Below are positions 55,035 to 63,316 of a DNA stretch of 64,000 nt, in pieces (the stretch's first letter is position 1; each line of letters opens with the position of its first letter). The translations under genes and the position numbers were made by a program. A model generated the notes under the pieces. It did no database searches, was not told the origin of the DNA, and saw nothing but the letters and a program-made list of their open reading frames with translations. This stretch comes from Pedosphaera sp. (GTDB lineage: Bacteria; Verrucomicrobiota; Verrucomicrobiia; Limisphaerales; JADLHS01): assembly GCA_009695195.1 (NCBI GenBank), contig SIBJ01000004.1, positions 1 through 64,000 of the forward strand. Direction: 5' to 3'.

Positions 55035-56234
55035 ATGGAACGTATTTTCGCCACCTACCGCATCGAGACGTCGCTGGCCGTGGAACCGGCCGCGGCGGCG
55101 CTCGCGGGCGAGCAATCCTCCGGCACTTTCGTCGCCGTGCCCGGCGAGACGGCGGAGTTGAAACAACGCTTCGCCGCGCGCGTCGAGAAGATCACCCCAC
55201 TCGAAACCGTGAGCGAACCCAGCCTGCCGGGCTGTCGCAGCGGAACGGGAAAATTCCAGCGCGCGGAAATCGTCGTGTCGTGGTCGGTCGAAAACATGGG
55301 CTGCAACTTGCCCACGCTCGTTTCCACGATTCAGGGAAATCTCTACGAGCTATCGCAATTCTCCGGGCTGAAGTTGATGGATGTGGAGTTGCCGCCGTCC
55401 TTCGCGAAACATTTTCGCGGGCCGCGTTTCGGTATCACGGGTTGTCGCGAACTCACGAAGGTCAACGACCGCCCGCTCATCGGCACGATCATCAAGCCGA
55501 GCATCGGCCTGTCGCCGCAGCAAACCGCCGAACTGGTGAAGACGCTCGCCGAGGCGGGAATTGATTTCGTGAAGGACGACGAGTTGATGGCCGACCCGCC
55601 GCACTCGCCGTTCGATGAACGGGTGGACGCCATCATGCGCGTCGTCAACGCCCACGCCGACCGCACGGGCAAGAAGGTGATGTACGCCTTTAACGTCAGC
55701 GACGAACTCGACGCGATGCAACGTCATTACGAGAAGATCGTCCAGGCCGGCGGCACGTGCGCAATGATTTCGCTCAACAGCGTCGGCCTCGCGGGCGCAA
55801 AAAAGATTTGCGACCTCGGCGCGGTGGTCGCAGGCGTGATTTACCACTGGCTGACGGTGCGTCTGCCGAAACTGGATTCGTGGATGCCGGCGGCTTCGAT
55901 GTTCGGCATCGTCTATTTCACGCTGGTGACGACGGCGGCGGGGAGGGACAACCTCGTGAAGATCGGCGGACTGTTGTTTCTCGCGGCGGCGTTGCACAAC
56001 GCCGCCGGTTATTTTTTCGGCTACTGGTTGAGTCGCGCGTGCCGGCTGGACAAAAACTCGGCGCGCTCCATCGCATTCGAGGTCGGCTTGCAGAACGGCG
56101 GAATGGCGTCGGGACTCGCGGGCAAAATGGGAATGTTGGGCACGCTCGGCCTCGCGGCGGCGACCTTCAGTCCGTGGATGAACGTGAGCGGTTCGATCCT
56201 CGCGAATTACTGGCGCAAGCGTCCGGTGAAATGA
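55035..56234 (+). CDS. Chimera: RuBisCO-like protein N-terminus joined to a BASS-family transporter C-terminus
   Basis: A 399-residue protein. Residues 1 to ~255 are RuBisCO-like (form IV type): GTIIKPSIGLSPQQTAEL, DFVKDDELMADPPHSPF with the metal-binding KDDE, and ISLNSVGLAG. At ~256 (near base 55800) the sequence switches to the last four or five helices of a bile-acid:sodium symporter-like protein (RDNLVKIGGLLFLAAALHNAAGYFFG, ARSIAFEVGLQNGGMASGLA, NVSGSILANYWRKR). The second half of the RuBisCO barrel and the first half of the transporter are absent. It is in frame but very unlikely to work as either protein. It looks like a deletion scar or an assembly join. Confidence 0.85.
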   Translation: MERIFATYRIETSLAVEPAAAALAGEQSSGTFVAVPGETAELKQRFAARVEKITPLETVSEPSLPGCRSGTGKFQRAEIVVSWSVENMGCNLPTLVSTIQGNLYELSQFSGLKLMDVELPPSFAKHFRGPRFGITGCRELTKVNDRPLIGTIIKPSIGLSPQQTAELVKTLAEAGIDFVKDDELMADPPHSPFDERVDAIMRVVNAHADRTGKKVMYAFNVSDELDAMQRHYEKIVQAGGTCAMISLNSVGLAGAKKICDLGAVVAGVIYHWLTVRLPKLDSWMPAASMFGIVYFTLVTTAAGRDNLVKIGGLLFLAAALHNAAGYFFGYWLSRACRLDKNSARSIAFEVGLQNGGMASGLAGKMGMLGTLGLAAATFSPWMNVSGSILANYWRKRPVK

Positions 56235-59354: not shown

Positions 59355-59476
59355 GACGCCAATTTATGCAAAGGCGCGCCGGCAAACAATTGGGGCACAG
59401 CCTGATTGAAACCTGCGGGTGAAGATTACGGCGGCTAGGGGAATCCCTTATCCTGCCAGGCGAAAAAGAAGAACGC

Positions 59477-59540
59477 TGGTGGGCCCAACTGGATTTGAAC
59501 CAGTGACCAACCCCGAATGCATTCGGGGCTGCTCTATCCG
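59477..59540 (-). pseudogene. tRNA remnant, 3' part (Ile2-like)
   Basis: On the minus strand: part of a D-arm (GGATAGAGCAG), then a perfect palindrome CCCCGAATGCATTCGGGG where the anticodon arm should be, TTGGTC, a good T-arm (ACTGGTTCAAATCCAGT) and an acceptor 3' strand GGGCCCA followed by CCA. The 5' acceptor strand is missing. The arm is three bases too long and has no proper anticodon loop. Confidence 0.72.
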
Positions 59541-59794
59541 TTTGTTTCAGCTTTGCGCTTTTCCAACAGAAACAATGCAAGCTTGGGGTTCTTCTTCCGC
59601 TTCAACTCCCGTTCAAATGTGCGCGCCACATTCAAGTCCGTCATCTCCACGCTCGCGACCAAAGTCAAGTCTCCCATGCGCTTGGTGGAATGCGTGTGGT
59701 CGTTATGATGTTGATCAATCCGGCGATCCAAATCCGTTGTCGAGCCGATGTAATGTCGGCCTGTGGAACCACGAAGCATGTAAACCCAAGCCAT
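59534..59794 (-). CDS. Small GIY-YIG endonuclease-domain protein
   Basis: An 86-residue protein: WVYMLRGSTGRHYIGSTTDL carries the GIY-YIG core, followed by the RRIDQHHNDH arginine/histidine strand and an RTFERELKRKKNP helix with the catalytic-type Glu. Stand-alone members are of unknown function. It lies between tRNA-Ile2 and a tRNA remnant, all on one strand; its last codons touch the remnant. Confidence 0.85.
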   Translation of the reverse strand: MAWVYMLRGSTGRHYIGSTTDLDRRIDQHHNDHTHSTKRMGDLTLVASVEMTDLNVARTFERELKRKKNPKLALFLLEKRKAETNG

Positions 59795-59806
59795 GGACTG
59801 AAATAG

Positions 59807-59879
59807 TGGGCCTGCTCGGATTTGAACCGAGGACCAAGCGATTATGAGTCGCCTGCTCTAACCGCTGAGCTACAGGCCC
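59807..59879 (-). tRNA. tRNA-Ile2 (anticodon CAT)
   Basis: 73 bases fold into a full cloverleaf. The 7 bp acceptor GGGCCTG pairs with CAGGCCC; D-arm GCTC..GAGC; anticodon arm GGCGA-CTCATAA-TCGCT with CAT; T-arm CTCGGTTCAAATCCGAG. The body matches tRNA-Ile2 (CAGGCGACTCATAATCGC), whose C34 is changed to lysidine to read AUA, rather than tRNA-Met. CCA is not encoded. Confidence 0.9.
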
Positions 59880-59969
59880 GTCTTGAAGCATTTCATGATT
59901 ATCCGAATCTCACTCGAAAGACAAATTGAATGGCTAACGCCATGATCCATACGCATCGGGCAAAAGGTT

Positions 59970-60026
59970 CCAGTTGACCAACCCCGAATTCGTTCGGGGC
60001 TGCTCTAACCGCTGAGCTATGGGCCC
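59970..60026 (-). pseudogene. tRNA remnant, 5' part (Ile2-like)
   Basis: The minus strand begins GGGCCCATAGCTCAGCGG with an intact D-arm, then a palindromic arm CCCCGAACGAATTCGGGG, TTGGTC and the beginning of the T-arm (AACTGG), after which similarity stops. It would pair with the acceptor strand of the remnant at 59477-59540. The two share a ~37 bp direct repeat (59500-59536 and 59970-60007). Confidence 0.72.
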
Positions 60027-60754: not shown

Positions 60755-63316
60755 ATGAAAATCCAGTGCGCATGTGGTGCAAAATACGCCTTCGAGGTCA
60801 CGCCGGAGCAGGCGCACCAGCGGGTCCAATTCGTCTGCCCCGCCTGCGGCCTCGATTCGTCCGACTACCTCACCGATCTCGTCCGGCAGCAGTTCGGCAT
60901 CGGTGCGCCGGGGCCGGGCGCCGCGCCGGCCGTTGAGATCGCCGCGCCGCCCAGCCACGCGCCGGCGCCCGCCGATTCGTTCGCGACCACGGTGACGCCT
61001 CGACCACCGGTTCCTGTCGCCGCGCCCGAACCGGTGACTCCGCCGCCGCCCCCGCCCGTCCGCGTCGTGGCGCCACAATCCGTCGCGCCGCCACCGGCGC
61101 CAGTGCCGACGGTGCGATTGCATCGCGGCGGACAAAAAGCCACGGAGGCCGAGGCGGAGGTGAAAGACACGCGCTTCTGCGCGAAACATCCCGGCGTGCG
61201 CACAACGGAAACCTGCTGCGTCTGTCAGAAACCGATTTGCCCGAAGTGCATGGAGTTGTCCGGCTACGTCTGTTCGCCACTGTGCAAACAGAAAGCCGAG
61301 CTGCGCGGCATTGACGTACCGGTTTTTGAAGGACAAAAAGCGCTCGTCGAGCGGCGGCGTTCGCGCAAGCTCGGTTGGGTCTTCGCCACTTCCGGCACGA
61401 CGGTCGCGGCGGTGCTCGGGCTTTGGATCTGGTGGACGTGGATCGGCCAGACGCCGCGCGTGGCGTTCGCCGTGCGTTTCGAGACGCCGGCGTACAGCGG
61501 TTCATCGGTTTTGTGCGCGCCGGAGCAAATTGTTTTTCTCCACGGCGCCACGCTCGCGCGCCACGACGTGAAGGCGAGCAAAGAAATCTGGTCCCGCTCG
61601 CTGATTGACAAGGCGAAGATCGCCGCCGACGTGGAGCGGGAACTCAAACGACTGCGCACGTTGCAGGAAAAGTTGAACAGCGATTTCCCGGACGCGGACC
61701 CGATCAAAATCCCCGCGCCGGAAAAACTCGCGCGGCAATTCGAGCGCGCCACCGCGGAGTCGCTCGAACTGCGCATCGTTGGCCAGAACATCTGGGTCCA
61801 GTGGCCGGACAAACTGGTGCGTTACGATTGGGACACGGGCGCGCCGGCGAAGGAGCTCGCGGTCGAGGGCGGCGGGTTTCGCGGCTTCATCGCTCGCGGC
61901 GACGAGTTGCTGATGCTCGACGAGCAACCCGGCAGACACATCATCACGCACATCAACCTCGCCAGCGCGACGACCCGCACTGAAGAAATCATTGATCCCG
62001 AAAAACCCGCCGCAGCGGTCGTCGCCAAATCAGAAACACTCTCGGCGACAAACAAGCCCGCTGCCGGAGCCGTCGCCACGCGCGGCGCGAAAAAAACTTC
62101 CGGCGGCGCGGGCTTGCCCATCGGCAAACCGGGAGCGGACGGCGGCAAGCCATTGGACCCCGCGAAAGTCGAGGAACAGGCGGCGCACATGACGCTCGCG
62201 GGCCGGATCGCCTCGCCCGCCGTGCTGGCGGCGAATCGCAATCAGGAGCGCACGCTCGCGGCGATGAATGACTCGGGCAAACCCCGTCCAACCGGCGACG
62301 AGCCGGCACCGGAACCGACCGAAACTTTTTCGCTGATGCCGGCGAAGGATGGCTACGTGGAATTTTCCACGCGCCTGATCGAACAGCGCCTGGTGGCGCG
62401 CAAGGCGATGAAGGAAGCGCCGAAGAAATCCGCGCTCGACGGGCCGGTGAGCGTGGGCGCCTCGATGGAAACCGCGAACCAGCTCCTGAACGAGATGCAA
62501 CGCGAGCGCGGGGGCGACACGGTGATGGAAGACGAGAGCCGTTACTCGGTGACCTTGCGCCGCGCCGACGCCAAGGACACGGCCAAGTGGACCGGCGAAG
62601 TGATCGGGCATCCCTCGATCTTCCCGCTCCAGTCCGTCAACGTCATCACCGGCAACCGCTCGATCATCGTGCTCGACAAGGACAATAAAAAAATGTGGTC
62701 GGGCGAACTTTCCTACAACGTCGAACGCGGCGGTTCGCTGGAGGTGAACGAAAAGACCGGCCAGGGGCCGTGCGTCGAGCGCGGCGACACGCTGTTTGTT
62801 TTCGACGAAGGCGTGCTGACGGCATTTGATTTGAAGAAGGGCACCGTCCGTTGGCGTCTGCCGTCGGTCGGGATTTCCGGTTTGTTCTTCGATGAACAGG
62901 GCAAACTTTACGTCAACTCCACGACCGCGAGTCCGGACAGCATCAAGTATTCGCGGCAGATTGACATCACGCGCGGGACGAGCGGGCTGTTGATGAAAGT
63001 CGAGCCGGCGACGGGAAAAACTTTATGGACCCGCGAAATCAACGGCACGCTCGCCTACGTTTCCGGCAAATATATTTTCACGCTCCAATCCTACGCGCCG
63101 CCCGGCTACGATTCGGAGGAAGAAAATCCGTATCAGGCCGCGCCGATCATGCAGACCGACCCGTTCGTTCGCATCCGGCGGATCAATCCCGCCAACGGCA
63201 AGGACCTGTGGGCGCATTTCCAATTGCGCTGCCCCATGGACGTGCGCTTCGACCGCAACAAAATCCATCTCGTGTTCAAACGAGAAGTGCAGGTGCTGAA
63301 GTTCCTGACGCTGTGA
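60755..63316 (+). CDS. Zinc-ribbon/B-box membrane protein with a PQQ-like beta-propeller
   Basis: An 853-residue protein. The N-terminus has a zinc ribbon (KIQCACGAKYAFEV...FVCPACGLD), a Pro/Ala-rich linker and a B-box-like zinc site (FCAKHPGVRTTETCCVCQKPICPKC). One membrane helix follows at ~210-230 (GWVFATSGTTVAAVLGLWIWW). The rest has repeated beta-blade motifs (VFDEGVLTAFDLKKGTVRW, MKVEPATGKTLWTREI) of a PQQ-like propeller. The cytoplasmic zinc part and extracytoplasmic propeller suggest a membrane-spanning scaffold or sensor. Function unknown. Likely co-transcribed with the pseudopilin gene. Confidence 0.8.
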   Translation: MKIQCACGAKYAFEVTPEQAHQRVQFVCPACGLDSSDYLTDLVRQQFGIGAPGPGAAPAVEIAAPPSHAPAPADSFATTVTPRPPVPVAAPEPVTPPPPPPVRVVAPQSVAPPPAPVPTVRLHRGGQKATEAEAEVKDTRFCAKHPGVRTTETCCVCQKPICPKCMELSGYVCSPLCKQKAELRGIDVPVFEGQKALVERRRSRKLGWVFATSGTTVAAVLGLWIWWTWIGQTPRVAFAVRFETPAYSGSSVLCAPEQIVFLHGATLARHDVKASKEIWSRSLIDKAKIAADVERELKRLRTLQEKLNSDFPDADPIKIPAPEKLARQFERATAESLELRIVGQNIWVQWPDKLVRYDWDTGAPAKELAVEGGGFRGFIARGDELLMLDEQPGRHIITHINLASATTRTEEIIDPEKPAAAVVAKSETLSATNKPAAGAVATRGAKKTSGGAGLPIGKPGADGGKPLDPAKVEEQAAHMTLAGRIASPAVLAANRNQERTLAAMNDSGKPRPTGDEPAPEPTETFSLMPAKDGYVEFSTRLIEQRLVARKAMKEAPKKSALDGPVSVGASMETANQLLNEMQRERGGDTVMEDESRYSVTLRRADAKDTAKWTGEVIGHPSIFPLQSVNVITGNRSIIVLDKDNKKMWSGELSYNVERGGSLEVNEKTGQGPCVERGDTLFVFDEGVLTAFDLKKGTVRWRLPSVGISGLFFDEQGKLYVNSTTASPDSIKYSRQIDITRGTSGLLMKVEPATGKTLWTREINGTLAYVSGKYIFTLQSYAPPGYDSEEENPYQAAPIMQTDPFVRIRRINPANGKDLWAHFQLRCPMDVRFDRNKIHLVFKREVQVLKFLTL

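Follow-up and report, generated by a model that had tools for sequence, protein, structure and literature searches.

How does a tRNA gene come to lie in two halves, with an intact tRNA of the same type and a small nuclease gene between them? A tRNA-Ile2 locus in a 64,000-nt stretch of a Pedosphaera sp. contig (the window) raises this question. The initial annotation had described two tRNA halves, a direct repeat, a complete tRNA-Ile2 and a GIY-YIG gene, all on one strand, and we found each of them at the position given (Table 1). We propose that the locus carries a small selfish element which lives in tRNA genes, belongs to the free-standing homing type and keeps one tRNA intact. We put the probability of this reading at roughly 60%.

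Table 1. Features of the split tRNA-Ile2 locus in the window.
Feature	Position	Strand	Remarks
tRNA-Ile2 (split), 5' half	60000..60026	-	tRNA positions 1-27; 25/27 identical to inner tRNA
Palindrome 1	59982..59999	-	CCCCGAACGAATTCGGGG; 7-bp stem and 4-nt loop in place of the anticodon arm
Direct repeat, right copy	59975..60011	-	37 nt
Variable-loop/T-stem remnant	59970..59981	-	Short (TTGGTC-AACTGG), followed by non-tRNA sequence
tRNA-Ile2, intact	59806..59879	-	Anticodon CAT; ARAGORN; Rfam tRNA 72.9 bits
GIY-YIG nuclease gene	59534..59794	-	86 aa; UPF0213-like minimal domain, catalytic residues in place
D-arm remnant	59529..59540	-	CGGATAGAGCAG; source of the nuclease stop codon
Palindrome 2	59511..59528	-	CCCCGAATGCATTCGGGG; perfect 18-nt palindrome in place of the anticodon arm
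Direct repeat, left copy	59504..59540	-	37 nt; palindrome and tRNA flanks
tRNA-Ile2 (split), 3' half	59477..59510	-	tRNA position 43 onward, with discriminator and CCA

The nuclease gene follows the intact tRNA directly and reads in the same direction, and the pair is flanked by the same-type tRNA halves. In both halves a palindrome has replaced the anticodon arm, as first described. The two copies of the direct repeat are 92% identical and 434 bp apart, and the TAG stop codon of the nuclease ORF falls within the D-arm remnant of the 3' unit. ARAGORN called the intact CAT tRNA Met. In E. coli, the sequences most similar to it (86.7%, full length) carry the annotation tRNA-Ile, and we therefore assigned it to Ile2, which agrees with the first description of a complete tRNA-Ile2.

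The halves had been taken for parts of the same tRNA type. This was borne out by the acceptor strands of the outer 5' and outer 3' halves, which form 7/7 Watson-Crick pairs. Cross-pairing with the inner tRNA was poorer: the outer 5' strand pairs with the inner 3' strand at only 5/7 positions, and the inner 5' strand reaches 7/7 with the outer 3' strand only with two G-U pairs. The inner tRNA differs from the outer halves at 2/27 positions on the 5' side and at 8/32 on the 3' side. It is without an encoded CCA, which is present in the outer 3' half and in the intact CAT tRNAs of relatives. From these sequence comparisons, we think it probable that a single tRNA gene supplied both outer halves and that the inner tRNA represents a different allele.

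In most relatives the inner tRNA matches the outer halves exactly or almost exactly, and the window locus, with its 8/32 differences, is probably the better witness for two distinct alleles. The initial annotation had proposed an imported replacement tRNA; as an invariable step this is not supported, since duplication or gene conversion would fit the near-identical halves equally well. The underlying idea of a cassette inside a tRNA gene stood, as a nuclease gene and an intact tRNA copy do lie in a split tRNA gene, and they do so repeatedly across genomes and isotypes. The proposed modes of entry were not supported. A mobile intron was rejected because the Rfam search of the window matched tRNA only and no intron family, group I included. 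An integrase-type island was not upheld either, since the 86-aa ORF and the intact tRNA are the only recognised genes between the halves, an integrase is absent and the nuclease is the sole protein.

The tRNA halves also give rise to spurious ORFs and mis-called tRNAs in annotation. On the plus strand of the window, a 142-aa ORF (59419-59847) with GFEP motifs runs across the complement of the tRNA parts, and it is a likely source of spurious annotated proteins. Elsewhere in the window, the ORF at 55035-56234 starts RuBisCO-like (Pfam to residue 257) and ends, as judged by eye, like a membrane transporter. It is either a gene fusion or an assembly misjoin.

The assignment of the gene between the halves was confirmed by Pfam (ORF 59534-59794, PF01541, E=4.9e-13). 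In 27 diverse nuclease sequences, Y5, Y15, G17, R25, H29, E61 and K65 are invariant, and the tyrosines, the arginine and the glutamate among them we take to be those expected of GIY-YIG enzymes. The structure model of the window nuclease had a mean pLDDT of 91.6. Its best PDB matches, most of them with a weak E-value, were UPF0213, Slx1, I-TevI and UvrC. The window protein found no match in viral contigs, plasmids and 50,697 phage records, and a phage or plasmid origin was rejected on this basis.

We looked for the same arrangement in related genomes and found it at many loci and isotypes. The same genome holds further loci with the same parts at tRNA-Lys and tRNA-Asn, and relatives of the nuclease protein are present in 68/387 Verrucomicrobiota genomes, the other 319 being without a match. 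Because there are two further loci in this genome and many in the phylum, a chance arrangement can be excluded. We examined 113 GIY-YIG loci from searches of the genome itself, its family and the phylum, with the four weakest phylum matches left out. An intact same-strand tRNA ends within 500 bp upstream of the gene at 71/113 loci. When either side was considered, 75/113 had an intact same-strand tRNA within 500 bp, and an opposite-strand tRNA was present at 1/113. Fourteen tRNA isotypes are represented, with CAT counted once although it covers both Ile2 and initiator Met. Such recurrence at many isotypes in one phylum suggests a family of selfish elements that has so far gone undescribed.

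At the remaining 38/113 loci, no intact tRNA lies on the same strand within 500 bp in either direction. Five of them carry a tmRNA gene upstream of a small GIY-YIG gene on the same strand (L059, L074, L098, L107, L125), three carry degenerate or cut-off tRNAs (L081, L082, L113) and five carry tRNA fragments with a palindrome, recognised by eye (L015, L024, L051, L068, L086). Thus tmRNA and tRNA fragments explain 13/38, and the other 25 may be ordinary GIY-YIG genes.

A second scan, in which named genome contigs were searched with the close-group alignment, gave 28 loci, of which L215, L216, L218 and possibly a few more duplicate earlier ones. All were titled Verrucomicrobiota except one Alphaproteobacteria MAG. 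An intact tRNA lies just upstream in 27/28 (20 CAT, 7 Lys), a matching 3' half downstream in 24/28 and a 5' half upstream in 14/28.

Some loci hold tandem units. Three units of GIY-YIG gene, palindrome and 3' half follow one another in L047, and three units of 5' half and palindrome in L016; L050 is likewise a tandem-unit locus. From their sequence organisation, such units would be as expected of break repair. A clean empty site was not found in a close relative: the orthologous, partly syntenic tRNA-Ile2 locus of genome G008 (L135) is itself rearranged. The G008 tRNA-Ile2 (L135 1501-1577) resembles a chimera of two Ile2 alleles fused in the anticodon loop; the sequence downstream of it is island-like.

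Next, we considered where the palindromes interrupt the tRNA genes, using 31 palindromes with both flanks matching the neighbouring intact tRNA. The Ile2/Lys junction is 27|43. Here 15 nt (tRNA positions 28-42) are replaced by 16-18 nt, and the event is not a simple insertion. Junctions are fixed by tRNA type, at 26|44 in Thr, 29|43 in Arg, 28|44 in Pro, 23|34 or 37|46 in Asn and 39|48 in fMet, where 8 nt are replaced. Two fMet loci (L076, L120) have the palindrome in the T-loop (55|60), and a tRNA-Leu locus (L095) is interrupted at 34|35. The palindromes in tRNA genes are about 14-18 bp long and their stems vary by clade (CCCCGA, TCCCGA, TCCCGC, TTCCGG, TTCGCC) with complementarity retained. 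The hairpins were selected for complementarity, and position is therefore the only independent result. The palindrome is more likely an overwritten, protected site than the target of the nuclease.

The initial annotation had regarded relatives with such tRNA-like halves and no nuclease as evidence against its cassette reading. We searched 387 genomes for the exact Ile2/Lys tRNA-palindrome junction and found 12 copies in 7 genomes, all seven nuclease-positive. All 12 lie within about 400 bp of a GIY-YIG gene, and the 319 nuclease-negative genomes have none (Fisher p=4e-6 by genome; the accompanying chance rate assumes 50 tRNAs per 4 Mb). The apparent exception is a tRNA-Lys 5' half without a nuclease gene on G007:C14 (L187), which resembles the end of a locus that an integrase island has disrupted. 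The other end may be on G007:C264 (L015), where a tRNA without its 5' end is adjoined by an integrase-like ORF, recognised by eye, while C14 carries the second tRNA-Lys with the 5' half. Because of its missing tRNA 5' end, L015 had also been a candidate for a cassette transposed to a non-tRNA site; we rejected this, since a split by an integrase island fits better. L015 and L187 were counted neither as a transposition nor as a nuclease-free counterexample.

To see how tRNA type is distributed over the nucleases, we built a tree of 126 sequences, excluding proteins of <60 aa; its 91 columns are few and limit the resolution. The tRNA type changes 52 times on this tree compared with 78.1 times when shuffled, and 0/200 shuffles were as low. 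Nuclease clades thus track tRNA isotype across bacterial families. Clustering was clearest for Asn, Leu-GAG, Gln, Thr and initiator Met, and was not significant for the Ser, Ala, Asp, Gly and tmRNA groups on the 126-sequence tree. The window nuclease, which is associated with Ile2, branches among the Lys nucleases of its family, in a group of four with support 100/90. tRNA-Ile2 and tRNA-Lys have the flanks GAGCAG and TTGGT in common, and the window lineage likely underwent a switch of target from Lys to Ile2. Since the junctions are fixed, the target of each nuclease clade is predictable, and the specificity of a minimal GIY-YIG enzyme can be read from genomes.

Some traits of the homing type are present, namely a GIY-YIG domain with its catalytic residues, a gene positioned at its presumed target and a target specific to the clade. 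In the proposed mechanism, the nuclease would cut a tRNA gene inside the stretch that is overwritten by the palindrome in element-bearing alleles (positions 28-42 for Ile2 and Lys). Repair would use an element-bearing copy as template, with the tRNA halves serving as homology arms. The nuclease gene would be installed together with one uninterrupted tRNA, as the event would otherwise be lethal. The palindrome in the leftover halves would remove the cleavage site and prevent the remnants from acting as tRNAs, and the repeated tRNA halves would then permit tandem amplification and loss. The cutting and transfer steps we infer from what is established for GIY-YIG homing enzymes. In the element-bearing allele the halves are altered by the palindrome and the inner tRNA is unaltered. 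The nuclease should cut its own intact inner tRNA gene unless this is protected, unlike in a classical homing allele.

The palindromes are not confined to tRNA loci. Among the family's genomes, we counted 14, 16, at least 31 and 9 copies of CCCCGA-N3-6-TCGGGG in the four with the nuclease and 0-5 in the eight without it (exact Mann-Whitney p=0.002). Phylum-wide, at least 10 copies of one or the other of two palindrome patterns were present in 15/68 positive and 3/319 negative genomes, and the reversed control gave 2/68 and 3/319; counts of at least 8 and at least 10 were taken by eye from tables. Genome G129, which is nuclease-positive, has 115 copies of the reversed-control pattern GGGGCT-N3-6-AGCCCC, which may form a palindrome family of its own. 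Palindromes away from the tRNA locus share the stem subtype of those at it: palindromes of the GAA...TTC subtype and of the other subtype numbered 17 vs 0 in G000 and G024 and 0 vs 24 in G110 and G300, with palindromes of neither subtype omitted (3/11, 3/12, 4/16, 3/15) and the first 15 listed used for G300. The genomes are not independent in this comparison, G110 and G300 being of one family.

Many palindrome copies in the window's family are in frame in likely protein genes. Compared with relatives, the palindrome adds four residues to an ISNCY-type transposase and three to an IS4-type one, with a few residues replaced. The G008 ortholog (L203) of the window gene at 60755-63316, beside the element, has three in-frame palindromes and the window gene has zero. 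Clean insertion sites were not found in this pair, whose flanks are too diverged, and the transposase comparisons are cleaner. In the pooled flanks of 43 sites, the sequence read outward is Y-T-G-G, with the four letters seen in 80, 52, 47 and 40 of 86 cases, respectively; the left-right orientation was fitted, and the pooled count is independent of it. Genome G300 has 72 palindrome copies, and at loci L243-L257 they are embedded in a longer intergenic repeat.

This wide distribution allows a second explanation, in which the palindromes are an independent dispersed repeat, comparable to REPs or the palindromic elements of Rickettsia, that also entered duplicated tRNA genes, while the GIY-YIG gene merely occupies the same tRNA hot spot and is inactive on the tRNA gene. 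The 11 copies outside tRNA loci in the window's own genome, some palindromes being in frame in protein genes, and the larger intergenic repeats that hold the palindromes in G300 and G110 would fit it. We nevertheless consider it unlikely, since palindromes are more abundant where the nuclease is present, in the family as in the phylum, the tRNA junction always occurs with a nuclease gene across the 387 genomes and the junctions vary by nuclease clade. The homing reading can be extended to these copies. The nuclease and the palindrome might form one mobile system, in which the enzyme would cut between inverted YTGG half-sites and a hairpin would heal the break and overwrite the spacer. This extension is tentative, and we lean against it; the examined G300 palindromes are part of a longer repeat, which weakens the claim that an 18-bp unit moves freely.

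A toxin-antitoxin-like module would also account for the tight same-strand linkage to tRNA and for the isotype specificity. Here the GIY-YIG protein would be an anticodon nuclease acting on the tRNA, and the palindrome-bearing halves would be decoy or antitoxin RNAs, with a stable hairpin standing in for the arm that such a nuclease would bind. We find this improbable: the halves are incomplete and many loci carry a 3' half alone, both fold and family place the protein with DNA nucleases (UPF0213, the UvrC N-domain, Slx1, I-TevI), and the palindromes dispersed in protein genes are left unexplained. Debris of integrative islands, in which tyrosine-integrase elements would have duplicated tRNA 3' ends and decayed to leave a passenger nuclease gene, is very improbable: tRNA genes are common integration sites and islands seem to occupy tRNAs in G007 and G008, but the unit of roughly 450 bp has no integrase, includes 5' as well as 3' halves and recurs in the same compact form at many isotypes in many families.

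We therefore retain the homing element as the preferred reading. Few targets open to a selfish gene are as essential and as conserved as tRNA genes. An element that splits a tRNA gene and keeps a working copy accounts for the recurrent pattern in Verrucomicrobiota, where it has reached fourteen isotypes and tmRNA. If the nuclease does spread the palindromes, hairpins would move into tRNA and tmRNA genes and, with the frame kept, into protein genes. The entry of short palindromic elements into protein and RNA genes, a long-standing puzzle, would then become testable.

We searched the literature on GIY-YIG enzymes with tRNA genes, Verrucomicrobiota, UPF0213/YhbQ, palindromes and REP/RAYT, with thin coverage of subscription papers and preprints, and found no description of the element. 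Several known systems come close to it in part. REP sequences are short palindromes with a linked RAYT gene that may spread them, and RAYTs are HUH-type, IS200-like proteins. The element described here also combines short palindromes with a linked gene, which in contrast is GIY-YIG by both Pfam and fold. The nearest solved relatives by sequence and fold are UPF0213 proteins (1zg2, 1ywl), which have the minimal GIY-YIG domain in common with the window nuclease. Their gammaproteobacterial relatives (two with annotation) adjoin a DUF480 gene and not a tRNA.

The palindromic elements of Rickettsia are 105-146 bp long with long stem-loops, and occur in frame in protein genes as well as in tmRNA and M1 RNA (PMC2229807). 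The palindromes described here are likewise found in RNA genes and, in frame, in protein genes, and are much shorter at about 14-18 bp. The Rickettsia elements are not known to have an assigned mobiliser, whereas here palindrome abundance follows the nuclease gene. Spread of palindromes by the nuclease, if true, would provide Rickettsia-type palindromic elements with a first candidate mechanism.

The closest parallel is SegB of T-even phages, a tRNA-linked GIY-YIG nuclease for which recombination amplifies a tRNA-Tyr segment (PMC13096335). Like the free-standing GIY-YIG enzymes described there, the nucleases of our loci are outside introns and co-located with tRNA genes. The amplification of a tRNA-nuclease segment by a break and homologous recombination resembles the tandem units of L047, L016 and L050. 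Unlike SegB, the nuclease described here is chromosomal in Verrucomicrobiota, about 80-100 aa long and without a separate DNA-binding domain. A further difference from SegB is its location within individual tRNA genes that are split into halves, bear palindrome scars and are accompanied by a retained intact copy.
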